Assembly (NCBI GenBank): GCA_001460835.1
Contig: CYKH01000021.1
Coordinates: forward strand, 1 to 42,356
DNA: 42,356 nt
Source: Bodo saltans
Taxonomy: Eukaryota; Euglenozoa; Kinetoplastea; Eubodonida; Bodonidae
Direction of reading: 5' to 3'
How positions within the stretch are numbered: the stretch's first letter is position 1; each line of letters opens with the position of its first letter. A model generated the notes under the pieces. That model made no database searches and was not told the origin of the DNA. It worked only from the letters and a program-made list of their open reading frames with translations. The position numbers were made by a program, and so were the translations under genes. Positions 20,179-42,356 of the stretch are shown here, piece after piece.

Positions 20179-20485
20179 GTCCCATCTCCTCCCTTTTTTT
20201 CATTTTTTGATTGTTTATTTTCAGAAAAACAAAAAATGTTTTTCTGTTGCTCCCAAACACAGTTGCTCTAAATTTGGGATCGTCGTAAGAGCCTAATCGT
20301 TTCGTTGCTTCATTTACCCCCTTTTAACCTACCCGTATTCTTTGTTCACCAACCACTTGGTGATGGCATCAAAATCCTTACCGGAACTACTTTTTTCGTC
20401 TCGTTTTATCCTTGCCTTTTCCCACACAGAACGAAGAACCCCTCGGGGACCACACACCACACAATCACAGAGAAGAATCCCGCGG
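20179..20485 (+). promoter_or_regulatory. Intergenic region with TDR1 leader and spliced-leader acceptor
   Basis: T-rich runs occur at 20190-20220. CTTGCCTTTTCCCACACAG with AG at 20428-20429 is the likely acceptor for TDR1, since the same sequence precedes the second copy. It lies downstream of the ATG at 20363 and so excludes the longer open frame. The leader from 20413 onward is repeated exactly at 22076. Confidence 0.6.
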
Positions 20486-21811: not shown

Positions 21812-22148
21812 TCTTTCTCTCGGTCAGACGGCGCCAAGAAAATGCATATTTATACCAAACAATGCCGTGGAAGACCCACGCAGCCAGAGCCGGGTGGAGG
21901 AAAAACAACGTCCAACCCGCCTCACTCATCTTCTCCCCTTGAACTCGCTTACGCTTTATCTTCCCGCGATTCGTTATCCGGCGATCATGCGCTTATTCCT
22001 CGACGTCAAGCAGCACGTCATTTTGCTACCCCCACGAGGTGCTCTGTGAACCTTTTCTACTCCCTCCTTTTTTTGTGCCTTTTCCCACACAGAACGAAGA
22101 ACCCCTCGGGGACCACACACCACACAATCACAGAGAAGAATCCCGCGG
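21812..22148 (+). promoter_or_regulatory. TDR1 intergenic region with acceptor of the second copy
   Basis: This is the spacer between two TDR1 copies. It contains the 3' flank of copy 1, without recognisable elements, then a T/C tract (22051-22084) and CCCACACAG, AG at 22091-22092. It is unlike the sequence upstream of copy 1 except in the final 73 bases. Confidence 0.5.
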
Positions 22149-22157
22149 ATGTCCGTG
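22076..22157 (+). repeat. Exact 82-bp repeat of the TDR1 leader and first codons
   Basis: Bases 22076-22157 equal 20413-20494, an offset of 1663, covering the acceptor, the entire leader, ATG and the next two codons. Identity starts abruptly at the pyrimidine tract and runs into the N gap, so the true extent downstream is unknown. It shows a tandem TDR1 array. Confidence 0.95.
22149..22157 (+). CDS. TDR1: Start of a second TDR1-like copy, cut by a sequencing gap
   Basis: Only the first three codons (Met-Ser-Val) are visible before the N run, but the preceding 73 bases match the leader of the complete TDR1 gene exactly. A full copy needs about 1.3 kb, which cannot fit in 300 bases. So the N run is a placeholder, the copy is truncated, or an unresolved array was collapsed. 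Confidence 0.75.
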
Positions 22158-22457
22158 NNNNNNNNNNNNNNNNNNNNNNNNNNNNNNNNNNNNNNNNNNN
22201 NNNNNNNNNNNNNNNNNNNNNNNNNNNNNNNNNNNNNNNNNNNNNNNNNNNNNNNNNNNNNNNNNNNNNNNNNNNNNNNNNNNNNNNNNNNNNNNNNNNN
22301 NNNNNNNNNNNNNNNNNNNNNNNNNNNNNNNNNNNNNNNNNNNNNNNNNNNNNNNNNNNNNNNNNNNNNNNNNNNNNNNNNNNNNNNNNNNNNNNNNNNN
22401 NNNNNNNNNNNNNNNNNNNNNNNNNNNNNNNNNNNNNNNNNNNNNNNNNNNNNNNNN
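22158..22457. other. Assembly gap of 300 N
   Basis: Exactly 300 undetermined bases. The round number and the position inside a near-identical tandem gene copy suggest an unresolved repeat with an arbitrary gap length. Confidence 0.95.
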
Positions 22458-22502
22458 TCTTTCTGTACTTTATTGCAAGAAAAAAGAATAATCATCGTAT
22501 TT
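22458..22502 (+). promoter_or_regulatory. Predicted spliced-leader acceptor for the GST gene
   Basis: The pyrimidine-rich TCTTTCTGTACTTTATTGCAAG begins at the gap edge, with AG at 22478-22479. The ATG follows 24 bases later. Confidence 0.5.
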
Positions 22503-26144: not shown

Positions 26145-26534
26145 ACAAAGTTTCTTGTCAAGAATTCTGTGTCTGCTTCCTGAGGTGTGTTATCGTACTA
26201 TCGAAAATAGGGCAGGGATTCAACAGCACTCTATGGTTGCGTATTGAGGTATCAAATAACAAAGAAACGTGAGAAACGCAAACAAAGAAATTCACGAGAG
26301 CAATCAGCAACGCACCAAAAAAAAAAAATCAATCAGCGACAAAACAAAACAAAATATCGGCAAGGGAAAAGATCATGTGCGTGTGTGCTTTGGTGTCTGC
26401 TGCTTTTTACTTGTTGATGAGAACACTCAAAAAAAAACAAAAAACACGAAGCTAACAATGTGGATCTCAACAACATCTTTACCTTTTTTTTTCCTGTTCG
26501 TATTGTGACACCACAGTTTGTTTTCCATCATCGA
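26145..26534 (+). promoter_or_regulatory. Intergenic region with predicted spliced-leader acceptor
   Basis: The A-rich part (26260-26460) has poly-A runs of 8-12 bases but no retroelement sequence. A T/C tract (26478-26500) leads to GTGACACCACAG, AG at 26515-26516, 19 bases before the ATG. The ATG at 26458 is upstream of this acceptor and out of frame. Confidence 0.5.
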
Positions 26535-27317
26535 ATGGCCCCAAAGCGTTCGCGCTCCGCAACAGCGGAAGCCGCCGCTGAAGCGGAAAAGCCACTTACA
26601 CGCAAGCCTCCAGTTGCCAAAGCTGATGCACCAGCATCAGCAGCGGATGGCTCTTGCCCAAATCAAGACTTGATCGACGTGTTCGAATCCTTGCTTGTTT
26701 ACGAGTCCAAAGACGGCAATAAGTGGGCTGGTGTGGCGTATCGCAAGGTCGTCAATGTTCTGAGAGGTTTGAAGACGAAGGTCACGTCAGGCAAAGATAT
26801 CGCGCATCTTGACGGAGTTGGCGATGCAAGCGTCAAGAAGACCACAGAATTTCTCACGACTGGGACCATTAAGAAGCTGGATGAGCTGAAGGCGCTGCAT
26901 GGTGCCCTTCCTGTGGGCATGGTATCCCCTAGCAAGTCTGGTGGTGCAACAACGGGCAAGGCGGCGAAAGCAATTGCTGCCGAGGCTGGTGCGTCACCGC
27001 CCACAAAAGCACAGTTGAAGGCAATCAAAGACGCGGCAGAGACGTATGAGTCCCAGTCGCTTCAGTCTCTCAAGGATTTGTGTAAGCTTAACAAGCAGGT
27101 GATGAGCGGAACCAAGTCAGAGCTTGTGCAGCGGTGTGCCGAGGGAAAGGTTCTTGGACAGACACCCATCTGCCCATTCTGTGGCGGCGGCAAGCTTCGC
27201 TATGAGATCAAGACTGGGATGTATCGTTGCCCAGGCTACACGGACGATGACTCCTACAAGCCGTGTGTGTTCCTCAGTGGAACCGTAGTTCGCACGGCAT
27301 GGCTCGAAGGAGCATAA
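26535..27317 (+). CDS. Polymerase beta-like HhH/lyase domain fused to SAP-PADR1 zinc domain
   Basis: The 260-residue protein begins with a basic segment (PKRSRS, likely nuclear). Residues about 43-122 match the 8-kDa domain of DNA polymerase beta: AYRKVVNVL (68-76), the helix-hairpin-helix LDGVG (92-96) and KKTTEFLTTG. Lys102 aligns with the Schiff-base lysine of the dRP lyase; the position of the nearby lysine just after GVG is Ala98. An Ala/Gly linker follows. Residues about 174-208 resemble a SAP-like helix pair (LKDLCKLNKQ, KSELVQRCAEGKVLG). The end is a zinc site of the PARP1 Zn3/PADR1 type: Cys213-x2-Cys216, Cys232 and Cys244. No polymerase or ADP-ribosyltransferase domain is present. 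A DNA-break sensor or processing role is inferred. The ATG at 26535 follows the acceptor; a longer frame opening at GTG 26460 is excluded. Confidence 0.75.
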   Translation: MAPKRSRSATAEAAAEAEKPLTRKPPVAKADAPASAADGSCPNQDLIDVFESLLVYESKDGNKWAGVAYRKVVNVLRGLKTKVTSGKDIAHLDGVGDASVKKTTEFLTTGTIKKLDELKALHGALPVGMVSPSKSGGATTGKAAKAIAAEAGASPPTKAQLKAIKDAAETYESQSLQSLKDLCKLNKQVMSGTKSELVQRCAEGKVLGQTPICPFCGGGKLRYEIKTGMYRCPGYTDDDSYKPCVFLSGTVVRTAWLEGA

Positions 27318-27818
27318 CGTTTGTGGTGAAATCCGTCTTCAAGAAATCCGCACGTGGTGCGGCGTTTGTCCTTTTTATATTTTTTGATTTGTGTGACGCT
27401 CCTTTCGTCCCAATTCTCAGAGTGACGCGTGTTTCAACTTCGTTGCTGCTTCAGCCCAAACACAAGGCTTTCTCATTCGTCCCGACTGATGTAACGTGAC
27501 TTCCTGCGTTGATTGACTGAATCCATTGGCTGACTTTTTGTTGTATTCGACCAAAGAGAGCATTGTTCTCACCCTCTTAAACGAGCGAATAGAAAACTAA
27601 AAGAATTCTGGTGGCTCTCGTCGCAGAGCACTTTTGTATCGCACTTATTGGCTTTCCAAAAGAAAAAAGAAAACCTCAGAAGGAAAGCGAGAGAAACATT
27701 CACAACATTTGATTGGAATTAACGCACACATACATAAAAGAAAGGAAGCAACAAACGGGTTGCAAAGGAATAAGAAAGATCATTGGTTCGTGTACAACAA
27801 CAACAAAGATCAAAAACA
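27318..27818. other. Intergenic region before the giant gene
   Basis: This 501-base spacer has T-rich stretches at 27370-27390 and 27530-27545 and a purine-rich, A-rich end. A weak acceptor candidate is TTGGCTTTCCAAAAG (AG 27661-27662), which leaves a leader of about 155 bases. No gene or repeat is recognisable. Confidence 0.4.
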
Positions 27819-30800
27819 ATGAATCCGATTCACGATGTCTCATCAATTGACGGAGACACTTCTATCCAGCACCGCAGCATGATGTCTGTACTAGGTGGTG
27901 GTGGAAGCGGCAGTGCTAGTGCTGCACAACAGCAGCAGCAGCATCAAGACCTCGATGCGATCTCTATCCGAGGTGACTTGTGGTTTATCGCAGATGGCAA
28001 CAAACCAAATAAAGCCAACGCCGCCGGGCGGGGCACCAAACAGCACATTGTCATTGAAAACGGTCGTCTCGAGATCTTCTCGTCGTCCAGTGACCAGGCT
28101 CGCATGGTGAAAGGGTTTACGATGCGAAACATTCGACGCACTTCGTGGTTTGTGCATGACACTTCCAGCAGCAGTTCATCCACCGCAGACTCGAAGTCAG
28201 CATCGCAGCAATCATCACTCCCGTCTGTTCAATCCGGAGGCGCATTACAACGAGGCCGTGGCAAAGCCGTCATTGCTTCCGCTGTTGGTCGCACGCAGTC
28301 CGCTGGATCAAAACAACTCCAGCAATCTATCGCCGCACCCTCCAAGTACTTCTACATGATTGTCGAAGCTGCTGTTGACGCATTGCACGTCCCCCATCAT
28401 CACTCAGCAGGTCCGTCAACGGTTGGAGGCCCCAGAAATGATCGTTTGGTATTTTGCACCGATCATCAACAAGATTTTCAATTGTGGATGCAGTTCTTTG
28501 ACCAACTTGGCCCAGGGATCACCCTCGAGGATTACTACGATGGCCGCTCGGTGAGCGTCATGAGTGCCGCGGACAGTTTGCAAAGCCGCAGCGCAACCCC
28601 TCCTCCACCAGGAGGGGCGGCGGCAACATTCGACGAAAACAGCAACAGCAACGAGAAGTACGCTGCCTCCCATCATTTCAAGAATGAAGTGGAGAAGTTG
28701 TCGTCGTTTGCCGCAGAGTGGAAAATGAAGGCGATGGATTTATTTCACTCCGTTCAATCCACAATTGCTGAATGGAGCGACAATAACAACAATCACCACC
28801 ATCACAACACTGCAGGAGGATCAACCGCCGCCTCGTCACACCGCTTGTCCGTTGGAGAACTCAACGATGACTGGCACACGCACTCCACCAATTTGGTGAA
28901 CCAACTTCGCCGATCACTTTTGTCATTGGATGACGCGCCACCGCCACTCTCCTTGCAAGATACACGAGCATTCCGGAGTGGCTCGGTTCAAAGCAATCAG
29001 CATCATCACGCTCTCGTTGCCCCACCCGCTGCTGCTGCTCCGTCGTCTCTTTTTGACACGGAAGGTGCTTTGGAGCATAAAATACGGCACTTGCAGAAGC
29101 TCGTTCACCACTACATCCGCACAGAAACATCTGCGTGTGATGTGATTAACGATTTCGAGCGACGTAATCGTGCACTGATGGGCGCTCCGCTCAGCGGCGA
29201 CACACCCTCAAAACTTCGTGCCGTGTATTCTCATTTATCTCGAAAGTTGAGTGCAGCGTGGGTCACGATCTCCAGCCAGCCCCGAAGCACAAGCAGCGGA
29301 GGCGCCAGCGTATCCCCGTTTGTGTCTCGATCGCACTCAGCAGAAACGAATACAACTGCACAGCACAGAATTGCCGCCAAAGGTGCTGCGATGCTGTTCA
29401 ACAGCGAGGATTCGTTCGCGCTTGTCCCCCCGACTCCTGAGTCGTACGCTGCCGCAGCCAACGCGCTGAGTATCTCTGTCGAGGAGCTGATCAATTTGGT
29501 TCTGTTTGTACGAGCCCAGGTGACCAAAGCAGAAGAAGCTGGACACATCATTGTTTCCCGTGACGCCCACCCACTGCCTCAACAACTTGACGTGATCATG
29601 CAACAGTTGAGCAGCGTGGACGCAGCCACTGTCCGTGTTGAAACGGAGCGAGTCCTCGCAACGAGAACAGAGTATTTGCTGAGTGAAATCGCGCGGCTTC
29701 GGTCAATTTTAGACGAAAAGGAACGTCGCTTAGCGGAGACTCAAGTTCGAGCGAGTCGGCTAGAAGAGTTTGTCGCCACCACAACCAACGCCACGTCGCC
29801 CCATCGTGGAGGGTCAAGATTCGGCGGCGGCCACGGAAGTTCCTCCTCACCTGTTCGTGGTGGAGTTGTCAACCCCGTTGATGCGTTAGCGAACGCGTCC
29901 CTGCGAGACACAGAGCGAACTATCGGTGAATTGCTGAAAACGTTGGAACACCACGGCGTCCAGCTGCCCAATGGTCACAGCAACGCTGTCAAGCTGCGGT
30001 TCGCGTTTGAGAATCTCCTCTTCAACACCACGCCATTGATTCATCAGCTGATCAGCCCGGAAGAAGCGCATGGGCTGAAACAGCTCATTGACCATAAATC
30101 ACACACCATTCACCGACTTGAACGACAGCTTCAAGACGCCCAGGCCATTCAAGATCAGATCCACCGGCAACACCAAAAGGAAATGAATGCGGCGGCTGCT
30201 GCGGCGCATCATTACCCAGACGGCCGAGGGATGGATAAGCCCTCCGTCACCCTCCACGCGATTACCAGCGTGGGAGACGGGACCATTGCCGCAGCTGCTG
30301 CTGTGGATCCTGCAGCAGCGGCGGCGGCTGCGCGGAAGGTGGCTGACTTGGCACTGATGCTGCGGCAACGTGAGGAACAAATTGACATCATGAAACAGGA
30401 GCTCCAAAGTGTGAAGGACATCGAAGCCATTGGCACCGCAAATAAAGCAGAACTCGACCACTGGAAAGGGCGATGTGCAAAACTTGAGCGTGACGCAGCG
30501 CTGGCACATATTTCCGCAGATGCAGTTCTCTCGGCGGCGACACCGGCGGCAACAACGCATCTCGCTGACTCACTGCCCTCCCCTGTACTGTCAGTCGCGT
30601 CTTCACAAGCAGCGCAGCATCATCGCAGTATTCCTACTTCAAGTCACCAGCAGCCGAATCCATCTGAGGAACGTTTCGTCCAGCTTCTCACCATGAAGAA
30701 CCGACAAATTGCGTCGCTGCAGACTCATATCACGACGCTTCTCGCGGCCCAACCCATTCCAAGCGACGCCGCGGCTATTAATAATCCATTACCGGCTGTT

Positions 30801-33800
30801 ATTTCGTCATTGTTGCAACTTCCACCTCCTTCGTCCGATGTTGCGCCCCGCAGCAGCAGTATCGGTAGCTTAGTGGCGCACAATGCGTATCAAGACACAG
30901 AGCAAGCGGCTCTTGGACTCCTCGAAGAAGCAGAAGCAGACTTTGGCATTCTCCTTCCCGAAGGCTCCACGGCAGCGCGACTTCGATACGTATTCGATGT
31001 TCTTAACCGCCAACTGAGCGAAGCAACTCTGGAGCACGATGGTGGCGCCGTGAGCGAAAGCACTCAACGGAGCAATCAGCCAATGCATCTGAATGATGAG
31101 GAGCACTCGTCAGCCTCTGTCCACGCAGATGCGCTTGCCCAAAGTGTGATGCAGTTGTCAGAGGCGATGGGTGAGCCTATTCAATTGCCGCCACGAGCTC
31201 CAAGCGAAGGGTCCGCCTCGCCTCTCCTGCATCAGCAAGCTGTCACGAAGGCTCTTGGCGTCGTCGTCCAGCGAGCGACAGAGTTCATCAAATCTGGCGC
31301 ATTCGAAGAAGATGATGAGGACAGTCCTAATGACAGTGCCAGAAGAGGTCTGGCCTCATCGCCCAGTGGCTTGCAGGCGGAGGACACCATTACTTCCACT
31401 GGAGGTGGTTCTGATCGTGCGCCACTTGCTGCCACCTCTGATGCGCCTCGCCGAGCGTCCCTCGGAACTCCCCGACGCATCGCAGCGAAAGCGAAGCCGC
31501 CAAGTGCCACAAGTAGCTCATCGCCACTGCAGGCACCGTTATCCGTGACTAAGGTGTTGGACTCGACCAAGCTAGCACTGGAGCTCGACACCACCGCTCA
31601 ACAGCTCCGAGGACTAGTGCAAAAACATACCTCCCACGAATCTCAACATGCAGCGTCACTGGTCTCCCATACAGCGTCAATTCACGAGTCCATCCACGAC
31701 CTCGATGCGCTGATCAAACGCCTCGAAAAGACAGCACACGATGAAAGACACAAGGTGCAAGCTCTGAAGAGTACGGCAACGCAACAGCAACAGCAACATC
31801 AGGATGAGATTTCCCAGCTTCGTGCTCAACTTCAGCAACAACGCCAGCAGCAATTGTCATCAGCGGCAGCCTCCCCAATTCAAAAATCAGTGCAACTGGA
31901 GCCTCTTGCTGCTGCTGGGGTGGATCAACGGGAACTGTCTGCGTTGGAAAACTCTGCCATTGACGCCATCACTGATATGCTTGCGAATGAGAATCTCCTC
32001 GCTGACCCAGCTGCGGATGAAGCCGCACCACCGCAGCAATTGCGCGACGGTGTGTTACGATTGTTGAAGCAGAGCGACGATCTGAAGGAGGAGCTTCGCA
32101 GAGCGCACGTCGCCGAAAATGATCTCCGTCGGGACCTCGTGGTTGCCCGCTGTGAAATTTCACGCCAGGCACTCCTCGTGACAGAAGCGGAATCGCAGCG
32201 AGATGAGCACATTTCCAAACTACGAGCATCGCAGCGTCTGTTGTCAAGATTTGTCGATGACATCGCCGAGGAGGTTGCGTCTCAAAAGAAATCTCTCGCT
32301 AGTCAATTTGTGGAATTCCATCGGTTTGTGGCGTTTATGCACCACGAAGGTATCCGAGACGTGCTCGCTGGTGCGCTTGCATCCTCACGACGATCGATGG
32401 CAGCAACCCAATCGTTGGACGGCCGCGTCGCGGAGTTGGAGCAGCACATTGCAACAGTTTCGAAAGAACTTCAGCAATCTCAGACAACTGCAAGGGACCT
32501 CCGCGCCACTATCGAAGAAGAAAGAAGTGCCAGTGAAGAATTACGCTCGAAGAATGCTGCACTCACTGCAGAGCTTCGCGAGGTTGCCCAAGACACCGAC
32601 ACTCAGCTTGCTGAACTTGAACGCAAGCTGGAAACTCACATCGAACTGGAGGCACAACTTCGAAAAGAAAACGTTCGCCTCGATGCGCAAATCGACAACC
32701 TAACGGAATCGTTACGCGACCAAGAGGAGGCCACAGATCGTACCGTGGAGAGCACTCGCAAAGCGCAGCAATCAACACAGTCAATCGTTGACGAGCTCAC
32801 TCAAGAATTGCTGAATGCGCGCCAGCAGCGAGACCGCGACGTTGCTGCAGTAAAAACGGCAAGTGAAATTGCTAGAAGACAATGGGAGCAAGAGACCGAA
32901 GCATTGCGCACGCGCATCGACGCAATGCACGATGCAGCTACAGAGGGACGTGAAGATATGACCGTTCTTTGCCTTCTGGGCGATCCGCATGAAATCCCAG
33001 GAACTGAGACGTCATCAGCATCGGTCGGCGGCGGCCTCGATGCCTACGAAGCATTCAAGGACGACGAGAAGGGAGGATTGATGTCTTCCTCCATGAAGCT
33101 CGGGGCATCATATGGCGCTGCGACCACGACGAGCCTTGGCTCCTCCACTTCCACATCCCACTCGTTTGTGAAACGACGCGGCTCAGTCGCACCTGTAGCA
33201 GCAGCAGCATCGTCGCCAACTGTAAGCTCTTCCGACGCCCCCAACAACGATGAGGAACAGCAGCTTGCCGCTAAGTCAGAAGATGTCCTCGGGATTGTGC
33301 AACAGCTAGCTGGAGTCAAGGGCGGCCGTGACCAGCGACTAACCACGTCCCTTGCACGACTGAAGGCGTTCACCAACTGGTGCTACGACCGCCTCGTTCC
33401 CTTTGCATTCGGTTCCAACACGCAATGCCAGACAGTTCTCGACTCCATTGTATGGGCAGTGGAGGGGCACATGAGGCTCCTCCGCCACTCTGCGCCCCTT
33501 CTCGGTGCTCAACTGGAGATGCAACACCAACAAGAAAAGTCTACTAGCAGCAGTGCAACCACAAGTGTTAACATGACGATCTCAGAAAAAGTTGCATGGA
33601 GGATGAGAGAATTGAGTGAGGAGCACGATGCTCTGCGTTCCGCACTTCAGTCCGCAGCCGAAGTCGCAGCCACTGTCTCATTGAGCTCACCATCGACGAC
33701 GGTGGCGTCTCCTGCCTCTTTGACCAATAGGAGAAAATCAACTGTTACTTTCGGCCCCACCTCAACCTCATCAAGTAGCAATACGATCGCGTCGGTGAAG

Positions 33801-36800
33801 GACAACATTGCGACGCTCACCACTACTGTCAGTGGTGTGTCTCGACTCCTGTTATCCCTAGACGTGCCGTCCCTGGTAGATTTAGAGCTGCTTGTCATGA
33901 AGGGCATTCGTAGCCACAACCAGCACGAGCAACTGCTACATACAATCCGCAACATCCCAGCCGTTGTGTCGTCGTCACTTCTCGGCTCCGACGAAGATAT
34001 TGTGGACCCACTGCGCACCGTCACAGCGGAGAACGCTTCTGAGGTGTTGGTCAGTGCGATGCAACACGTCGGTGGAATGCTGAAGGAGGTTGAACAATCG
34101 TTGGCCTTACTTCGACCGCAGGACGACGACCCCACCACCGCATCCTCGTCTCCAAACTCGAGAGCAACGCACAACGTCTCGAAGCACATGGCCCTTCCCA
34201 TCATGAGCCCCGACGCACTGCGGTTATCTCTTGCCGCAATCCCCCACCTCCAATCAGAGCTAGAGCAGTCCCGGCGCGACCTTCGCATTGCCCTTGGGTC
34301 GATGGCAGATCATCATGCCGCTCAGCTCGAAGACAATGAAAAAGGTCGCGTGTTACTGCAAGGCACCGTTGAAGACTTAAGGCAGCGCCTGCAGACGGAA
34401 ATCGACGACCGAACGGCTGCTGATTCAGAGTGCAGACGGCAGCGCAACGACATTGAAATCCTTGAAGGTGAAATTCATCAGTCGAATCAGCAGTATGAAG
34501 CGAATTCACTGCGCATTCAAGAACTCGAGCTCCAGCTTCGTCGCCTAGATTTCGACACCGTGGAGTCATTGAAGGTGTTAGGCGCCATGCAAGGTGCAAG
34601 TGTGGATGGTGCGGAGCTCCAGCGCCCCTCGATGATCTCCGTGGCAACATCAGCTGCCGAGCGAATTCGTGAGCTGGAGGCAGTCATTCAAGAAGCTGGT
34701 TGGGCGATCCGACCAACTGTCACCGCAGTTCCTCACCAACGGAGTGGCTCCCTGAGCAGCAGCATGAACCACGGGATGGTCACGACTGCTGCCAGCATGT
34801 ATGGCGCACCAAGACGCAGTTTCCTTGCGGGAGCGTCTGCTGGTGGTGGTAGCTCGCCTCACCAAAACTCTCCGCCACAAGATCGCTATGTATTCCCAAC
34901 AGAATCTGCGTTGACCACTCCCCCCGCGTTAGCGCGTCAGATGACGCCACAACGCTCAGCCTCGACTGTGCGTGCATCACTTCTCTCGCCATTAGTGACG
35001 GTGGTCAGCGATGATGACGATTTTACCCCTGATGCGCACAACAGCCCCTCGCCCTCTCACGCTGGGGGCGTCGTCTCATCCATCTTGAGCTCCTCCGTTC
35101 TCCAAGCAGGAAGTCACAACCCCGCCGCGCAGTCCCTTGTGCAGCTATGCCGCACCACCGCTGCAGAGAATCAACAACTCCGAGCAGATCGAGACTTGGT
35201 GAGCCGAGAGTGGGCCACTCTGCGTACCGCGGTAGAGGACATCGCATTCCATCTTCGTGTGCAATGCGACGAGCTTCGAACCACGGACAACGCGTTGTTC
35301 CTAGCGGCTGCAACACCTAAAGTCGTCACCGCTGCTCAAGACACACGCAACGTTTGTGATGCTGCACTTCAGGATGCGAAACACACAACTGCCACACTCA
35401 ACAGCACGTCTTCAAAGCTTGCTCAGAGTGAAGACGCACTGCGCCAACAACAAGATGAACTTGCCCAGGCGCAAAATGCTGCTGCAGAAGCGGAGCGCGA
35501 GTCTCAAAACCGTATTCGTGACCTCAAGAAGGAGCTCGAAGACTCTCGTCGTGCCATTGACGAACTGCAAGATGCACTTAATGTCCTTCGCAATGAAACT
35601 TCCATTGACATCGCCTCACTCCAACAGAAATGCGTGGAGAATCAAATTGCACGACAAGCGCTTAGCGATGAACTTGGCCGAGTGTCCGAGTCCACCACCG
35701 AGACGTCCGATATTTTGCAAGCGTCAGTGCGCGAGTTAACGGCTCAACGCGACGCATTGCAGCGCAAGTCCGACGTGTTGGCACGTGAGCAGCAGGAAGC
35801 TCTTGCGTTCCCCTCCGTTGTGCAGCAGTCCATTCGTTCGGTGGTGCAACTTGGTCAAAACTTCGACCAGGTGACCACCTTGTCAGATCGCTCCTTTGTG
35901 GAGTCCGCTGAAACATCGTCTCGTCGCCAAATCGAGCTTCGCTGGCAACAGGAGCAGCACAGCCTCGTCGTACAGCACGCACTGGATTCCCTGCGATCCG
36001 TTGCTATGATTGTGTCTATCGTTGGTGCGCCTTCGACCGACAGCGTGGCAGATGTCGTCCGAGCGTTGCATCAGAACGAAGCGACACTCCGCCACTTGTG
36101 CGGTGACACCAGCGTTGGGCGAAAAGAAAGCGTCACGCGGTCTGACTGCATTACAGCAATTCGGCAAGTGCTTCCTCTGCTGCACTCCTCCTCGTCTGCC
36201 TCCCATCTCCAGCAGCAGCAGCACATGCTCGATGAGTCTACAAATCCGCCAGTTGCATCCGCACCGACGACTTCCATTGTTCAACTTCTTGTGGATGGGT
36301 GTCAGCAGTTGTCTCATGAGCACGAATCGGCGCGCAACGATTTGGTCAACGCAACTGCAGAGGTGAAGTCTCTCAAGGACGAACTGCGGCGGCTGCGCGC
36401 AGGTGCCGATGACGCTGAAGAACAACAAACGCACACACAGTACGAGCTTACATTCGTTCAGCTGCAGAATTCAGAGCAACATCAACGTCGCCAATTAGAA
36501 ATGCGATTCATCGATGCTCATCTCTCAACTATCTCTACATTTGCATCTGTGGCGGTGCACCAAGCAGCCGCCGCCTCATCGCTTCTCCCTCAACCCTGTG
36601 CAGTCGATCAAATTGTAGCCTCTGTGGAGGCACTTCTGCACTCTGAGGGTTCTGCGCGAGCACTCCTTGGGTCCGCCAACTCCATCGCCGCCAACCCACG
36701 CCTCAAGGCTGACACTTCCACACGAATTGAGTTGTTGTCTGCTATGAATGAGGCTGTAGTGACGCTTTCTGAGGGCCGCCACGCGAACAGCAGCTTGATG

Positions 36801-39800
36801 ATCCCAATCGATGAATCGGTTCCTATCAGTGAGATCCTGTTGGAGTTCGCCGTGATCATGCGTGACGATGGGGAAGAGACGCATGAAGCTCTTATTGCAA
36901 CGACCCGAGCACTCGAGAAAACGCAAGCAGAGCTTCGCGATGCAGAAAATCGGTCAGCCTCAACTGGAGTGAACTTCGATGAAGCGGCATTTGCTCACGC
37001 TGCAGCGATCCTTGCGCTAGAGGAGCTGCACGGAAGGCGCGTGCTAGAGCAGCGCCACTTCGAATCGCTTCCCATTCGAGAGCACTTAATTCTGGCTGCC
37101 AATGCCAGCGTTATGGCGTGCAGTGTCAGTGGCGAACCAACTCTGTCAGTCGGTGGCCTGCCCAGCTTTGTGCAAGACACAGTGGCAAACGCCGCAGGAT
37201 ATTTGTCTCTCGTAGGAGATCCAACGGCAGCACGCCGGGACTTGTCAACGCGCTCCTCCTTGATTGCCGCCGCACGTGAAGCGATTCAACTCCTGCAGGG
37301 CACAGACAGTGAGCTTGATGTCTGCAGCGCCCTCGTTGTCGCCACACGCACCGCCGCATATGAGCTCCGCGACGCACAGGGTCATTTACAAGTTCTCGTC
37401 CCTGAAGCGCACAAGGCTCAAGAAGACGTGAAATACCTCACGGCATCGCTGAAGTCCGTGCAAAGCAATTACGATAACCACGGACAATTGTGGGATCAGT
37501 CCGCATTGAGTTTACAAGAAACGGTTGAGCGTCAGTCCATCGAAGGTCGCTATTGGGAATCTCTTGACCTCGCCCCGATGCGCCTCGCTGCGACCATTGG
37601 TTGGCAAGCTGCGTCGTTCGTTGGTGCACCACTCCACGAGACCCCTCAAGAGCTCCGTCAGCTGGTCGCGTCGGAGATGAGGTTGCGCGCTCTTGCTGGT
37701 GATATGCAACTTACCCGTGACACACCGACTGAAGTCACGAGGTCCTCATGCATCGCTGCGATCATGCAAGCAATTCACGTCCTCGGTGCTGATGTGAAGG
37801 GTGACCTCCTCTCGTCTCTCCTATCCGCGTGTGCTTCGGCTGCTCGCACCGTTGACGATGCGCATGCAGCCATCCCCGCCCTCACAAGCGAGTTGCGCAA
37901 GTTGAAGGAGGACCATCGAGCCCTACAACAGCAACACGCAGCACTGCAGGAAGATTCCACCTACGTCAAGACTCGACGCGATCAGCTTCTCCTACAACAT
38001 CACGAGCTCCAAGGGCGTCGACATTTGGAACTTCAAGCGCAAGGCAACGCGTGGGAGACGCTTGTCCCCGTGGCGACGATGGCCATGTCGCACGCACTCG
38101 AAGCCACAAGTGTCTTTGGGGATCGAGCCCCCGTCACCTCGTTGTTGGCACAGTCTGTTCATAGCTTGGCCCGTGAGCGCGCGTACTTAGCGACCCTCGC
38201 TGGTGACACGACGGTCCTCCCAACTGATGGGTCTCGATCGGAACTCATCGAGGCTATCGTCGAGTGTTTGGGAGTGTTGGAGTATGACATTCCTCGCCAG
38301 CATCTCGCCTCCACACTTATCTCTGCGTGCAGATCTTCTCACCGTCAAACCGAGGGCGATGCGATTGCGCTGCAAACGATCACGTCTGAACTGAAACGGA
38401 CGCAGGAGGAGTTGAGCGTCTACGCAGTCCAAACATTAAGCGCCAAGGAGCACTCCCACTCAACGTCATCGATTGTGCTTCTGAAGCAGCTGTGCATCGA
38501 TGAGCTGACTGAGCGACTTCAGGTTCAGATGCAATGGGCGCACGAAGCTCCGCAACCGCATATGCGAGAACTTGTTGAGGCTCACCACGCCGCAACGCTC
38601 TCCGCGTCTGCCTTAGGTGTGTCCCTCCCCGGCCTCGTTCGTGAAGTGCATCGCATTGCTGACGAACACGTTATTTTCAGCGGTATGGTGGGTGAGCTTG
38701 ACGTGGGCGCACACATGGGCAGCCGCTCTGAGCTAGCGCAGACAGTCCTTCGCGCTATTGATATTCTTCGCACTGCCGTTGGTGTCTCCTCCTCCTCACG
38801 GACTCACCGCAAACACGCATCTCCAAGCCGTGAAGACGGTGCAGCCCTGATCAGCATCGCTCATGATATTGCAGATGCTCTGGCATTGTCTCGCGCTCGT
38901 GCACGTGCTGCGGAGGGCCACCTCGTGCTCATTGCAGAGGATGCCCAAGTCCTTGTCGACGGGATCGCACAGTCGTGCATGACTCTGCGGGAAGATAAAC
39001 GAAAGCAGCAGCAACAGTTGGGAGAATCCACCTATGCGACCCCACCCCGCCCTGCAGCGAAGCGCGGAAATATCTCAGAGACGCCGTACAGCGCATTGCG
39101 TGCCCTCGTAGGGGGAGACGAAGATTACCTGTACGCTTCACCACCACCAGCACAGGACATTGCTCTCAACCAAAGCTTTGGATCTGCTGGTGCACTGGAC
39201 CGATCGGTGGAGGGCGGCGGCGGCGTTGTGGATGAAACTCGAGTTGCTCATCTCCATCGTCGCCTGCATCACGCCGGGGAAGATCTCGACCGTGCCGCAC
39301 GCGACGCATCCACACGTGCAAACGGACTCAGCGCGATTCTTCAGAGTGCATGTGAAGTGTTGCGACGAAGCCGCGGCGGCGGCTCTGCTGCACATCAACA
39401 GCAGCACACCTCTGAAGCCTTTGACGTTTTGGAGCTCGCAAACCTCTGCAAACAGATCACCGAAGAACTTGATGCAGTCCGTGACGATCATGTTTGCGTG
39501 TCCTGCGACTTCGCAGAAGCAAAAGGAAAAGCCGCTGGGTACCTAGGCGCACTTTCCGCCGCAGTGACGCAGATTCGTGAAACGTTGTTGTCCATTGGGG
39601 CGTTAGATGCGGAGGAGGAAACACGTTTCTCCTCTCATTCGCTTCTCGACAACCAGCAGCAAATGGATCATCCATCCATTGTTGCGAAACTTGTCGATGA
39701 CGCCGTCAAGTTCTGCTGTAAAAACTTGAAGGCCTATCACGAGGAAATATTGTCCGTGAAGAGCATCGTGGGCACAGCAATGATTCTCCACTCTCAAAAC

Positions 39801-41819
39801 CAGCAGCCACCGCCTGTCGCCGTCCACCACGACGACGCCGCAGTTCGTCATGTCGAGGCCCTTGTAAGATCATTTGACGTCGCCGTGAAGTTACTCGAGC
39901 AAGAGAAGAGATCCACCTCTGACCTAAGAGAGCGCCTTCACGATGCGGATGTTGCTGCTGAGGCTAACCGCGAACTTCTCGAAGGGCAAGCGGATTCATT
40001 GAATTCAGATTTGATCCGGAAGATGGAAGAAGTACAAGTACTCCTCCGTCGACTTGAAGCCTCAAATCACCGCGTCAGTCAGCTTGAGGGCTGTGTGGTG
40101 GAGATTGCCCACGCGTGTCGCCTGTCCACGACTCTCGCACCGCCCCTCCTCCGGCACACGAACGACACCGACAATAACGACGATGCCACTACTACGGATG
40201 AGAGTATCATGTCGCACACGGATGACGACGCACTTAACTTAAGTGCAGGAGGTGACGCGGTTGAGTGTGCTCGCCGTGCTGCGGATGCTGCAAGCTCTGC
40301 TCTCCGTTCCAACGACGTTCTCCTCTCGGAGCAACGCAGCCTCAAGCACCAACTTGCCCATAGTGCTGAACGGTGCGCTCACGCCGAGCGCGAAGTTGCG
40401 TTGATGCACGAACGACTTGATCAATCAAGTGCTCAATTTACAGCCCTTCAGCAAGAAGATGCGCTGCGTGCTCGTGAACTGCGAACCATGAGCGACAACC
40501 TTTCCCAAGCGAAGGAAGACACTCGACGCATGGAGCGAGATCTGCTGGAACAGCAAGAGCACCGCGTTGCCGACATGCAACGGCGCCTCGATGACCTGCA
40601 CCACTCCTCTGCCGCTGCTCAAGCTCAACTAAGCGCTGCTGTGAAGGGACATGAAGAAGAAATCACCGCGCTGAAGGAAGAAATTAGCTCGCTTCAACGT
40701 CATGTTGAGGATCTCCAGCAGTCTGGCAACGGGCAAAATGCCCAGCTTCGTCGTGTGTTTGCTCGTATGCGTACTGACAGCGTAGACGGATGCCTTCAAT
40801 TCGTGGATGACCTTGCTCTCAAGTATCAACTCGTTGACTTGCAACTGGAAGAGGCCACACGAAGGCAACGGACGATTTTATCGGCTTCTGTCACGGTGCC
40901 ATCTCCATTCTTGTCGAGCCTGATCTCCACGCTGAGCAGTACGTCACGTGCCGCGACTCTTCTCCACGCCCGTGACCACACGGAAGTCTCACTCAAAATC
41001 CAATCCTTAATGGACTCCAATGACGAACTTCTACAACTTGCCGGTGACACAACCGTTGGTCGCTCATCCTCCACTCTCTCGCCCTCCACCAGCAGCGTCA
41101 TCAGTCGAAGCGAGGCCATTATCGCCATTCTTCATGCGCTAACGCTGCTCCACGACGACTCGGCTGCAGCTGGAGGTGATGACGTTGAGTCGTCCTCTCC
41201 GAGAATGTCGCCCTCCCGCTCAGGAAGGCGCGGCAGCTTTACGGTGGACGTGAATAGTATCACCAGCAGCGGCAGTGCAATGAAGTCGATTACGGAGCAG
41301 TTAATCAACAGCGCAACAACGAATGTGGAAAGCCTTGCTCGTGCACGTCGTGCAACGATCCAAGGCCGATCCGAGACTCTCGACGTGGCGGATCGTCTGT
41401 CCTCCACCGTCAACGTCATTGTGGCATCTCTCTCGTCACTTCGTCGAGCTGTCAGCCCTGTCAACAGCAACGGAGCAGCGACTTCAATCCCCGCTGCTGG
41501 TGGTAGTGTTGTCCAGTTGGTAGCTTCCCTCGACGTTGCTGTTCGAGATGCCTGCGATCACATTGAGCAAATGAGAGATACACTTTCTTCCGCCGCTGCA
41601 TCACTGGCCTGTTTGCGACTCGCCGGCGGAGAGACTGGCATGAACACTGCTAGCAGACGCCGCTCGTCTCCTCCTCGCGTTTCCATTACAGGTCTTTCTG
41701 ACGTCACTTCGGTAGCCCCAGCGGTGCGCAGCTGTGTCGATGAGCTCTTGGCTCTTCGTCAGCAGAAACGTGACCTCGAACTCAAACTCGAACGAACCAA
41801 CGCCGATCGTGGAGCGTAG
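27819..41819 (+). CDS. Giant PH-domain, coiled-coil and repeat protein, function unknown
   Basis: 4666 residues if the TAG at 41817-41819 is the true stop. Residues about 48-230 look like a PH domain interrupted by a Ser-rich insertion: GDLWFIADG, then LEIFSSSSDQARMVKGF, YFYMIVEA, and the closing helix with TDHQQDFQLWMQFF. Three DTE...KLR repeats occur at about 410-1070, then coiled coils at about 1250-1730, 2140-2250, 2440-2670 and 4015-4310. From 2700 to 3660 and again at about 4345-4445 there are seven degenerate repeats built around GDTxxx...SRSxxIxAIxxAIxxL. Low-complexity runs are common. No motor, kinase or transmembrane segment is seen. A membrane- or phosphoinositide-linked cytoskeletal or tethering scaffold is my inference. 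The start ATG 27819 follows ACAACAACAAAG; the frame extends 12 codons further to a TTG. Confidence 0.8.
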   Translation: MNPIHDVSSIDGDTSIQHRSMMSVLGGGGSGSASAAQQQQQHQDLDAISIRGDLWFIADGNKPNKANAAGRGTKQHIVIENGRLEIFSSSSDQARMVKGFTMRNIRRTSWFVHDTSSSSSSTADSKSASQQSSLPSVQSGGALQRGRGKAVIASAVGRTQSAGSKQLQQSIAAPSKYFYMIVEAAVDALHVPHHHSAGPSTVGGPRNDRLVFCTDHQQDFQLWMQFFDQLGPGITLEDYYDGRSVSVMSAADSLQSRSATPPPPGGAAATFDENSNSNEKYAASHHFKNEVEKLSSFAAEWKMKAMDLFHSVQSTIAEWSDNNNNHHHHNTAGGSTAASSHRLSVGELNDDWHTHSTNLVNQLRRSLLSLDDAPPPLSLQDTRAFRSGSVQSNQHHHALVAPPAAAAPSSLFDTEGALEHKIRHLQKLVHHYIRTETSACDVINDFERRNRALMGAPLSGDTPSKLRAVYSHLSRKLSAAWVTISSQPRSTSSGGASVSPFVSRSHSAETNTTAQHRIAAKGAAMLFNSEDSFALVPPTPESYAAAANALSISVEELINLVLFVRAQVTKAEEAGHIIVSRDAHPLPQQLDVIMQQLSSVDAATVRVETERVLATRTEYLLSEIARLRSILDEKERRLAETQVRASRLEEFVATTTNATSPHRGGSRFGGGHGSSSSPVRGGVVNPVDALANASLRDTERTIGELLKTLEHHGVQLPNGHSNAVKLRFAFENLLFNTTPLIHQLISPEEAHGLKQLIDHKSHTIHRLERQLQDAQAIQDQIHRQHQKEMNAAAAAAHHYPDGRGMDKPSVTLHAITSVGDGTIAAAAAVDPAAAAAAARKVADLALMLRQREEQIDIMKQELQSVKDIEAIGTANKAELDHWKGRCAKLERDAALAHISADAVLSAATPAATTHLADSLPSPVLSVASSQAAQHHRSIPTSSHQQPNPSEERFVQLLTMKNRQIASLQTHITTLLAAQPIPSDAAAINNPLPAVISSLLQLPPPSSDVAPRSSSIGSLVAHNAYQDTEQAALGLLEEAEADFGILLPEGSTAARLRYVFDVLNRQLSEATLEHDGGAVSESTQRSNQPMHLNDEEHSSASVHADALAQSVMQLSEAMGEPIQLPPRAPSEGSASPLLHQQAVTKALGVVVQRATEFIKSGAFEEDDEDSPNDSARRGLASSPSGLQAEDTITSTGGGSDRAPLAATSDAPRRASLGTPRRIAAKAKPPSATSSSSPLQAPLSVTKVLDSTKLALELDTTAQQLRGLVQKHTSHESQHAASLVSHTASIHESIHDLDALIKRLEKTAHDERHKVQALKSTATQQQQQHQDEISQLRAQLQQQRQQQLSSAAASPIQKSVQLEPLAAAGVDQRELSALENSAIDAITDMLANENLLADPAADEAAPPQQLRDGVLRLLKQSDDLKEELRRAHVAENDLRRDLVVARCEISRQALLVTEAESQRDEHISKLRASQRLLSRFVDDIAEEVASQKKSLASQFVEFHRFVAFMHHEGIRDVLAGALASSRRSMAATQSLDGRVAELEQHIATVSKELQQSQTTARDLRATIEEERSASEELRSKNAALTAELREVAQDTDTQLAELERKLETHIELEAQLRKENVRLDAQIDNLTESLRDQEEATDRTVESTRKAQQSTQSIVDELTQELLNARQQRDRDVAAVKTASEIARRQWEQETEALRTRIDAMHDAATEGREDMTVLCLLGDPHEIPGTETSSASVGGGLDAYEAFKDDEKGGLMSSSMKLGASYGAATTTSLGSSTSTSHSFVKRRGSVAPVAAAASSPTVSSSDAPNNDEEQQLAAKSEDVLGIVQQLAGVKGGRDQRLTTSLARLKAFTNWCYDRLVPFAFGSNTQCQTVLDSIVWAVEGHMRLLRHSAPLLGAQLEMQHQQEKSTSSSATTSVNMTISEKVAWRMRELSEEHDALRSALQSAAEVAATVSLSSPSTTVASPASLTNRRKSTVTFGPTSTSSSSNTIASVKDNIATLTTTVSGVSRLLLSLDVPSLVDLELLVMKGIRSHNQHEQLLHTIRNIPAVVSSSLLGSDEDIVDPLRTVTAENASEVLVSAMQHVGGMLKEVEQSLALLRPQDDDPTTASSSPNSRATHNVSKHMALPIMSPDALRLSLAAIPHLQSELEQSRRDLRIALGSMADHHAAQLEDNEKGRVLLQGTVEDLRQRLQTEIDDRTAADSECRRQRNDIEILEGEIHQSNQQYEANSLRIQELELQLRRLDFDTVESLKVLGAMQGASVDGAELQRPSMISVATSAAERIRELEAVIQEAGWAIRPTVTAVPHQRSGSLSSSMNHGMVTTAASMYGAPRRSFLAGASAGGGSSPHQNSPPQDRYVFPTESALTTPPALARQMTPQRSASTVRASLLSPLVTVVSDDDDFTPDAHNSPSPSHAGGVVSSILSSSVLQAGSHNPAAQSLVQLCRTTAAENQQLRADRDLVSREWATLRTAVEDIAFHLRVQCDELRTTDNALFLAAATPKVVTAAQDTRNVCDAALQDAKHTTATLNSTSSKLAQSEDALRQQQDELAQAQNAAAEAERESQNRIRDLKKELEDSRRAIDELQDALNVLRNETSIDIASLQQKCVENQIARQALSDELGRVSESTTETSDILQASVRELTAQRDALQRKSDVLAREQQEALAFPSVVQQSIRSVVQLGQNFDQVTTLSDRSFVESAETSSRRQIELRWQQEQHSLVVQHALDSLRSVAMIVSIVGAPSTDSVADVVRALHQNEATLRHLCGDTSVGRKESVTRSDCITAIRQVLPLLHSSSSASHLQQQQHMLDESTNPPVASAPTTSIVQLLVDGCQQLSHEHESARNDLVNATAEVKSLKDELRRLRAGADDAEEQQTHTQYELTFVQLQNSEQHQRRQLEMRFIDAHLSTISTFASVAVHQAAAASSLLPQPCAVDQIVASVEALLHSEGSARALLGSANSIAANPRLKADTSTRIELLSAMNEAVVTLSEGRHANSSLMIPIDESVPISEILLEFAVIMRDDGEETHEALIATTRALEKTQAELRDAENRSASTGVNFDEAAFAHAAAILALEELHGRRVLEQRHFESLPIREHLILAANASVMACSVSGEPTLSVGGLPSFVQDTVANAAGYLSLVGDPTAARRDLSTRSSLIAAAREAIQLLQGTDSELDVCSALVVATRTAAYELRDAQGHLQVLVPEAHKAQEDVKYLTASLKSVQSNYDNHGQLWDQSALSLQETVERQSIEGRYWESLDLAPMRLAATIGWQAASFVGAPLHETPQELRQLVASEMRLRALAGDMQLTRDTPTEVTRSSCIAAIMQAIHVLGADVKGDLLSSLLSACASAARTVDDAHAAIPALTSELRKLKEDHRALQQQHAALQEDSTYVKTRRDQLLLQHHELQGRRHLELQAQGNAWETLVPVATMAMSHALEATSVFGDRAPVTSLLAQSVHSLARERAYLATLAGDTTVLPTDGSRSELIEAIVECLGVLEYDIPRQHLASTLISACRSSHRQTEGDAIALQTITSELKRTQEELSVYAVQTLSAKEHSHSTSSIVLLKQLCIDELTERLQVQMQWAHEAPQPHMRELVEAHHAATLSASALGVSLPGLVREVHRIADEHVIFSGMVGELDVGAHMGSRSELAQTVLRAIDILRTAVGVSSSSRTHRKHASPSREDGAALISIAHDIADALALSRARARAAEGHLVLIAEDAQVLVDGIAQSCMTLREDKRKQQQQLGESTYATPPRPAAKRGNISETPYSALRALVGGDEDYLYASPPPAQDIALNQSFGSAGALDRSVEGGGGVVDETRVAHLHRRLHHAGEDLDRAARDASTRANGLSAILQSACEVLRRSRGGGSAAHQQQHTSEAFDVLELANLCKQITEELDAVRDDHVCVSCDFAEAKGKAAGYLGALSAAVTQIRETLLSIGALDAEEETRFSSHSLLDNQQQMDHPSIVAKLVDDAVKFCCKNLKAYHEEILSVKSIVGTAMILHSQNQQPPPVAVHHDDAAVRHVEALVRSFDVAVKLLEQEKRSTSDLRERLHDADVAAEANRELLEGQADSLNSDLIRKMEEVQVLLRRLEASNHRVSQLEGCVVEIAHACRLSTTLAPPLLRHTNDTDNNDDATTTDESIMSHTDDDALNLSAGGDAVECARRAADAASSALRSNDVLLSEQRSLKHQLAHSAERCAHAEREVALMHERLDQSSAQFTALQQEDALRARELRTMSDNLSQAKEDTRRMERDLLEQQEHRVADMQRRLDDLHHSSAAAQAQLSAAVKGHEEEITALKEEISSLQRHVEDLQQSGNGQNAQLRRVFARMRTDSVDGCLQFVDDLALKYQLVDLQLEEATRRQRTILSASVTVPSPFLSSLISTLSSTSRAATLLHARDHTEVSLKIQSLMDSNDELLQLAGDTTVGRSSSTLSPSTSSVISRSEAIIAILHALTLLHDDSAAAGGDDVESSSPRMSPSRSGRRGSFTVDVNSITSSGSAMKSITEQLINSATTNVESLARARRATIQGRSETLDVADRLSSTVNVIVASLSSLRRAVSPVNSNGAATSIPAAGGSVVQLVASLDVAVRDACDHIEQMRDTLSSAAASLACLRLAGGETGMNTASRRRSSPPRVSITGLSDVTSVAPAVRSCVDELLALRQQKRDLELKLERTNADRGA
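29155..31015 (+). repeat. Three degenerate repeats in the N-terminal part of the giant protein
   Basis: Three protein-level repeats share a DTE start and a closing (K/R)LRxxFxxL helix: GDTPSKLRAVYSHLSRKL (29198-29251), LPNGHSNAVKLRFAFENLL (about 29963-30020) and LPEGSTAARLRYVFDVLNRQL (about 30955-31015). The second and third also share the helix before it (TIGELLKTLEHHG and ALGLLEEAEADFG). DNA identity is low, so the repeats are old. Confidence 0.6.
35916..38775 (+). repeat. Array of six degenerate repeats, plus a seventh downstream, in the giant protein
   Basis: Units start near 35916, 36480, 37030, 37527, 38013 and 38500, with a seventh at 40850-41150. Each begins with an Arg/Glu-rich helix (RRQIEL, RRQLEM, RRVLEQ, RQSIEG, RRHLEL), then an Ala-rich helix ending in a GxP-like turn (VGAP, SGEP, VGAP, FGDRAP). 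Next comes a helix leading to (L)(A/V/C)GDxxx, a variable loop, (T/S)R(S)xxIxAIxxAIxxL, and a spacer coiled coil. Spacing between GD cores is about 160-190 residues. I recognise no described family. Confidence 0.7.
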
Positions 41820-42356
41820 TTGAAGTCCGTCGTGTCGTCGCTGGCCACACTGCCGCGGTTGTCCACCATTCACCGCACCACGAGTGTAGTGGGTGGTGCT
41901 GCGCCTTTGAGGGAAAAGAAGGTGCCAGAAGCTTCCGTTTCGGCGCCATCGTCGGCCAACTCCTCCATTGTCGCTGCCGACGATGAAGTGAAGCCGAAAC
42001 CGGCTAAGCTGCACAGTCACAGCGTCTTGTTAATGTTGCTGCTGTGCAGACATCTAGTCCTGCGTTGACGTCCGTCGCCTTCACAACTCGGGTAGTTGCG
42101 GCGTGCGGTTGTTGAAGCGTGCACGAGCTCTATTCAAGCCGCATCTCGAAGTGCCGCCAAGGTTGCTGCAGAAGCCGTGTCAATTCTTCGTGAGCACGTT
42201 GACCATGAACAGTTTATTGCAGTGGATGCCGCATGCCAAGCTGGCACGGAACGTCGACCACTGCTCGTTGCACTCGTGGAAACTACAGCGGAGCTGTACC
42301 GTAACCTTCGTGAAGAAATGCAGCAGCAAAACGCTATTCTGCGACGAGCAGAGAAC
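41820..42356 (+). pseudogene. Continuation of the giant gene beyond its stop, interrupted
   Basis: The frame of the giant gene stays open after TAG 41817 for 82 codons, to TGA 42066-42068, with similar composition (Ala/Ser/Val-rich). At about 42008-42065 better coding character moves to the frame starting at 42011 (RLVNVAAVQTSSPALTSVAF). At about 42096-42112 it returns to the original frame, which then runs open for 87 codons to the window end. That last part (TERRPLLVALVETTAEL) resembles the SRS...AI part of the repeats of the giant protein. Three in-frame stops (41817, 42066, 42093) break it. Explanations: sequencing or assembly errors, a decaying 3' end, or a remnant of an adjacent paralogue. 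No restored version is proposed here. Confidence 0.65.

Follow-up and report, generated by a model that had tools for sequence, protein, structure and literature searches.

Seven old, diverged copies of a small, predicted helical unit in a giant coiled-coil-rich protein of Bodo saltans

Contig CYKH01000021.1 of Bodo saltans carries an exceptionally long reading frame, in whose C-terminal part a sequence-only reading had discerned seven copies of a weakly conserved unit. This raises the questions of whether such faint similarity reflects a true repeat, and what the repeat might do in a protein of this size. We analysed the entire contig (42,356 bases, hereafter the window) and searched the genome to which it belongs (29.3 Mb, 934 contigs). 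The giant gene is intron-less, occupies a single frame and contains all seven units; its open frame begins upstream of the ATG, at TTG 27783.

27819..41819, + strand: giant ORF, ATG at 27819, stop at 41817-41819; 4666 aa, 505 kDa, pI 5.6

A Pfam scan of the neighbouring frames assigned a family to 9 of 15, all nine on the + strand: MIF4G, COG2, endonuclease/phosphatase, XK-related, two GST genes, adaptin, HHH/PADR1, and an amino-acid-kinase match that lies under the Pfam cut-off. The frame directly upstream of the giant gene (26460-27317) encodes a short protein with a helix-hairpin-helix domain and a PADR1 zinc ribbon, the latter known from PARP1-like proteins. By a home-made score, 44% of the residues of the giant protein are heptad-like. 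Being large (505 kDa), rich in coiled coil, repeat-bearing and encoded in a kinetoplastid genome, it falls into the loose class of kinetoplastid giant coiled-coil proteins. Intron-less, densely packed genes are reported for Bodo saltans (PMC2621209), and kinetoplastids have been described as having giant cytoskeletal proteins built of coiled coil (PMC5358337).

The paraflagellar rod family gave 9 matches in the genome and none in 14 control genomes. Scanning the genome with the 3' end of the kinetoplastid spliced leader returned 38 exact and 15 one-mismatch matches, 52 of the 53 on the same strand, and none for the reversed control. Spliced-leader ends and the paraflagellar rod family together therefore identify the genome as kinetoplastid. 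Elsewhere in the window, a spliced-leader end (CTTTCTGTACTTTATTG, 22459-22475, one mismatch) comes directly after a 300-base run of N and is itself followed by a GST gene (22158-22475 for run and leader), as if mRNA-derived sequence had been joined into the scaffold; of the 53 listed spliced-leader matches, 16 are located at bases 1-3 of their contig. By eye, a leader of ~80 bases together with the first codons is shared between about 20415-20494 and 22077-22157, one copy preceding a two-domain GST gene (20486-21811) and the other lying immediately ahead of the N run, which would fit the loss of a tandem GST copy in the gap.

The units, of ~95 residues each, were cut by hand near the marks of the sequence-only reading and are numbered in amino acids from the ATG at 27819. 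Each was held out in turn and searched with a profile built from the other six.

35913..36194, + strand: Unit 1 (U1), aa 2699-2792; held-out profile 53.6 bits, E 1.2e-18
36468..36785, + strand: Unit 2 (U2; GS, TRI), aa 2884-2989; 19.0 bits, E 7.5e-8, weakest of the seven
37020..37313, + strand: Unit 3 (U3), aa 3068-3165; 33.7 bits, E 1.9e-12
37518..37802, + strand: Unit 4 (U4), aa 3234-3328; 37.6 bits, E 1e-13
38001..38297, + strand: Unit 5 (U5), aa 3395-3493; 46.2 bits, E 2.5e-16
38493..38786, + strand: Unit 6 (U6; GE), aa 3559-3656; 22.0 bits, E 8.8e-9
40842..41168, + strand: Unit 7 (U7), aa 4342-4450; 22.8 bits, E 4.7e-9

All seven held-out units were recovered (19.0-53.6 bits; E values of 7.5e-8 to 1.2e-18 in a one-sequence search space), and the best score among 400 null sequences was 10.3 bits. 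The nulls comprised 300 locally shuffled copies of the protein and 100 copies that were reversed and then shuffled in 6-aa steps. The repeat is thus real, and the absence of any significant self-alignment, named beforehand as the outcome that would refute it, did not occur. Similarity was also apparent without predefined boundaries: 60-aa windows slid along the protein and searched against all of it gave 57 self-matches at E<=0.01 (pairs counted from both sides), the best 30 of which all fell inside the seven units and their linkers, compared with 3, 0 and 5 self-matches in three shuffles. The repeat is visible by HMMER searches only, since blastp of the protein against itself returned no pair at E<=0.1 and TRF detected no tandem DNA repeat over 27000-42356. 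Residues 3783-3852 also matched weakly, the full profile giving 2.3 bits and the held-out runs up to 4.3; this lay within the null scores and was set aside.

Identity between units is 14-33% in protein and 33-40% in DNA, in line with the little DNA identity remarked on at the outset. At third codon positions it is 18-34%, which is the chance level: random pairs of 95 codons from the same gene gave a mean of 25.4% with a 5-95% range of 17.9-32.6. Synonymous sites are saturated; therefore the copies are old and the protein pattern is under selection. The same conclusion follows from third positions at chance while an Arg, a Gly, a second Arg and a Leu are kept in all seven units. The units are anciently duplicated copies, maintained through protein-level selection. 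Together with the recovery of every held-out unit, this pattern argues for a real domain rather than random coil, as had been proposed.

The four invariant residues are the Arg of the opening helix, the Gly of the GD motif, the Arg of [T/S]R and a Leu near the end of the third predicted helix (helix C). GD itself occurs in five of the seven units, U2 having GS and U6 GE; [T/S]R is present in all seven and [T/S]RS in six, the exception being TRI in U2. Both patterns had been described correctly. Of the opening helix said to be marked by Arg and Glu, the Arg stands (7/7), whereas the Glu was overstated (5/7). To gauge the strength of the blocks, 1000 null sets were scored for each, with optimisation over 61 offsets. 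No null set equalled the [T/S]RS helix and only 3 equalled the block formed by helix B and L.GD, whereas 17 did so for the opening helix, a modest result. The supposed GxP turn claimed too much, as strict GxP is found in three units (U1, U3, U4) and the S..GxP block taken alone is not significant (73/1000 nulls as good). The repeat signal resides in the [T/S]RS helix and in the end, L-x-G(D), of the helix before it.

Helix C starts with [T/S] in every unit and has D/E three residues on in five of seven, a capping-box pattern. From the invariant Gly (counted) to [T/S]R the distance varies between 10 and 20 residues, as would be expected of a surface loop, and U7 has the longest GD-to-SRS stretch of all units. 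Lysine is scarce in the units, with 4 of 699 residues as against 118 of 4666 for the protein overall (hypergeometric P 3.7e-5), but each unit has 7-9 Arg. That certain Arg residues are invariant and Lys is so rare hints at a role beyond capping, such as Arg-Asp pairs or a binding face. Averaged hydrophobicity gave no significant helical periodicity in any of five segments (permutation fractions 0.56, 1.0, 0.094, 0.12 and 0.25), which counts against a helical reading of the unit.

From U1 to U7, start-to-start spacing is 185, 184, 166, 161, 164 and 783 aa. The linkers between the first six units measure 91, 78, 68, 66 and 65 aa, so that those of U3-U4, U4-U5 and U5-U6 are nearly equal, and the gap between U6 and U7 is 685 aa. 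Heptad-like residues make up 163 of 368 (44%) in the first five linkers vs 84 of 590 (14%) in units 1-6. Segments in which the home-made score exceeded the 97.5th percentile of shuffled windows were found in three of these linkers and after U6.

36294..36467, + strand: heptad-like segment in the U1-U2 linker (aa 2826-2883), home-made heptad score
37347..37487, + strand: heptad-like segment in the U3-U4 linker (aa 3177-3223), home-made heptad score
37800..37976, + strand: heptad-like segment in the U4-U5 linker (aa 3328-3386), home-made heptad score
38841..39020, + strand: heptad-like segment after U6, home-made heptad score

The U2-U3 and U5-U6 linkers held no heptad-like segment over this threshold, and two further segments lie within U1 (aa 2702-2733) and U2 (aa 2892-2942). 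We considered whether the repeat extends past the [T/S]RS helix into the linkers. The linker after U4 resembles that after U5 (window matches at E 7.6e-5 and 1.7e-4), and held-out linker profiles recovered U4 at 9.4 bits (null maximum 8.4) and U5 at 12.9 bits (null maximum 7.4), with null maxima of 5.5-10.0 bits over the seven runs; U1 and U3 scored about 0 bits and U2, U6 and U7 gave nothing. In the linker block test, null sets were as good in 66 of 600 cases when all seven units were taken; with U1-U5 the figure was 72 of 600, and with U3-U5 it was 32 of 600. Similarity beyond the helix is therefore supported around U4-U5 only, and we do not claim it for all units.

The seven units form a single locus in the genome. 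Their consensus gave 7 matches at E<=10, a count that is a lower bound, and all of them are the seven units themselves. A 1000-aa piece of the protein retrieved only itself, and U5 alone retrieved itself and U1 (E 0.05). In Pfam, the whole protein had no convincing member of any family, the only match being PRD at E 0.23, and four of the seven units plus the consensus reached at best E 0.029, under the cut-offs, with no match to spectrin. NCBIfam returned one chance-level match for the seven units (E 0.073). Against PDB sequences, profile and consensus gave only weak matches to helical stretches: the profile hit 12 sequences at E<=1, namely designed helical proteins (E 0.0012 and above), release factor 1 (E 0.025 and above) and one other (E 0.74). 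These matches cover ~30-60 residues, no single stretch passing by itself, and we set them aside as helix composition. A scan with U1, which as a single unit is a weak probe, produced 17 pattern matches in viral contigs and 109 in bacterial and archaeal genomes, with 0 confirmed relatives. The description of the repeat as novel thus holds within Pfam, NCBIfam, the PDB sequences and the organism's own genome, and reaches as far as these collections. None of the paper titles listed for giant coiled-coil proteins of kinetoplastids and Bodo saltans describes this protein.

At the other end of the protein, the N-terminus resembles a PH domain. Unaltered, it matched PF00169 at E 0.13 (13.2 bits), with only the final portion of the model aligned; omitting two low-complexity stretches improved the match to E 0.003 (18.5 bits) and extended it over model positions 17-101 of 105. 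Neither score reaches the gathering cut-off of Pfam for this family (25.1 bits), and a PH domain is probable here, not proven.

27960..28554, + strand: PH-like stretch with low-complexity insert, Pfam PF00169, below cut-off

PDB sequences contained no match for this stretch. In the own genome, a search with the N-terminal piece returned that piece and, at E 0.132, a weak match on contig C905, which we rejected as the frame there is, by eye, a different protein. The N-terminal half also shows what looks like a weaker second repeat, at 29877-30059 and 30867-31037 and perhaps at 29049-29267, with the motif DTE ... L-P ... [R/K]-L-R-x-x-[F/Y]. We do not uphold it as a repeat: when its three candidate copies (aa 411-483, 687-747 and 1017-1073) were held out in turn, the third alone was recovered from the other two (7.5 bits), the second scored -1.9 bits and the first was not found, the maximum of 200 nulls being 4.2. 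An hhalign comparison with the seven units showed no relation (1 aligned column, score 9.0, where 60 random triples reached up to 15.4).

The C-terminus of the giant protein as called may not be the true one, as some stretches past the stop look coding in this frame. Beyond 41817, 120-base windows at 41820, 41880 and 41940 score 2.3, 5.0 and 2.9, relative to a 10th percentile of 2.2 for coding windows; the score dips at 42000 and 42060 (-9.9 and -3.1) before rising to strongly coding-like values of 13.4 at 42120 and 12.0 at 42180. Further in-frame stops occur at 42066 and 42093, the first in-frame ATG beyond them is at 42318, and the contig end (42356) falls within the coding-like sequence. 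This sequence may reflect either assembly errors, a broken gene or another gene. A candidate eighth copy past the stop scored 5.2 bits, which none of 126 real pieces of aa 1-2690 attained (maximum 4.4 bits) and 18 of 1000 shuffles of the tail equalled; its alignment spans model positions 17-57 only, without the GD/SRS part, and we do not claim it.

Taken together, we think it reasonably probable that the protein is a giant coiled-coil cytoskeletal scaffold of at least 505 kDa, bearing seven old, small, all-helical nodes in its C-terminal two fifths. In each node, helix A, opening with an Arg/Glu turn, would lead through a further turn into helix B. Helix B would end at the invariant Gly (L-x-G-D), and a loop that differs in length between units would connect it to helix C, opened by [T/S]-R-S as its N-cap and packed through an Ile/Ala/Leu face. 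In the first six nodes and their five linkers (65-91 residues), rods would alternate with nodes at a period of 161-185 residues, the seventh node being preceded by a long insert. The PH-like N-terminus could tie one end of the scaffold to membrane, and the nodes may dock partners at fixed spacing and/or mark the register of a coiled-coil dimer and act as its hinges, in the flagellum or the sub-membrane cytoskeleton. Perhaps half of our confidence in the scaffold extends to the docking of partners.

Several other readings have to be weighed against this scaffold. That an alanine- and leucine-rich coil merely resembles itself in places is scarcely credible; it would accord with the low pairwise identity (just 14-33%) and the empty blastp self-search, yet it fails against a leave-one-out recovery of 7/7 that beats 400 nulls preserving local composition. 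A possibility to be taken seriously, even if we lean against it, is that the units do not dock anything and only break up a long coiled coil, as helical hairpins or hinges at which the rod folds back, with helix-capping signals as the conserved letters. The strongest columns are indeed of capping type (the invariant Gly ending helix B and, in 5/7 units, [T/S]-x-x-[D/E] at helix C), and neither Pfam nor NCBIfam matched a binding domain. Capping, however, requires neither the invariant Arg after the N-cap nor that of the opening helix, each present in 7/7 units, and it leaves the near absence of Lys (4/699) unexplained.

Vesicle tethers of the golgin or EEA1 type combine, in general, a membrane-binding end with a long coiled coil, and the giant would share this layout through its putative PH-like end and a sequence that is 44% heptad-like; its nodes could then be Rab or SNARE sites. 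COG2 and an adaptin among the gene neighbours point the same way, although in kinetoplastid polycistrons gene neighbours carry little functional meaning. We regard this as unlikely. At E<=1, Pfam finds no golgin-type or FYVE domain and no matching terminal domain in the 4666 aa; such tethers do not typically carry repeated nodes, and 505 kDa with seven nodes is unusual for the class. Spectrin and plakin rods likewise carry small helical bundles, here predicted, strung along a giant protein. However, spectrin repeats of ~106 aa are contiguous and share helices, whereas the first six units here are split by linkers of 65-91 aa and have no Pfam spectrin match. Less probable still than a tether is a bodonid counterpart of FAZ10 that has diverged past sequence recognition. 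FAZ10 of Trypanosoma brucei is reported to have a predicted size of 502 kDa or more and two blocks of coiled coil, which harbours 52 nearly identical 35-aa repeats; its N-terminus has no recognisable motif (PMC5358337). The giant described here resembles it in predicted size (505 kDa), in its coiled-coil blocks with repeats and in its kinetoplastid origin, but has seven linker-separated units of ~95 aa with 14-33% identity and a PH-like N-terminus; near-identical 35-aa repeats of the FAZ10 type were absent by blastp self-search (E<=0.1) and by TRF over 27000-42356, on a contig that may end before the true end of the gene.

Another protein of comparable build is NUP-1 of trypanosomatids, which exceeds 400 kDa, is nearly all coiled coil, contains 17 central near-perfect 144-aa repeats and was reported not to be found in Bodo saltans by BLAST (PMC3313915). 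Both proteins are very large and combine coiled coil with long repeats. In contrast to NUP-1, blastp self-search and TRF showed no near-perfect repeat here, and the units, 14-33% identical, stand between heptad-like linkers.

Within the reading as a scaffold, a bolder version is conceivable, though we hold it only tentatively and rate it below the structural-break alternative: the units may represent a hitherto undescribed, bodonid- or kinetoplastid-restricted domain family that provides evenly spaced docking nodes on a membrane-anchored giant coiled-coil rod, a molecular ruler, in which the Arg pair and the Asp of GD would make up a site for binding or switching that has survived very long divergence. 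FAZ10 and NUP-1 have near-identical repeats, while the giant of Bodo saltans keeps old, diverged nodes, so that selection reveals the residues of importance. Should trypanosomatids have orthologues, the unit profile would help to annotate an uncharacterised large protein; if they do not, the seven-unit giant would be a local innovation in cell architecture.
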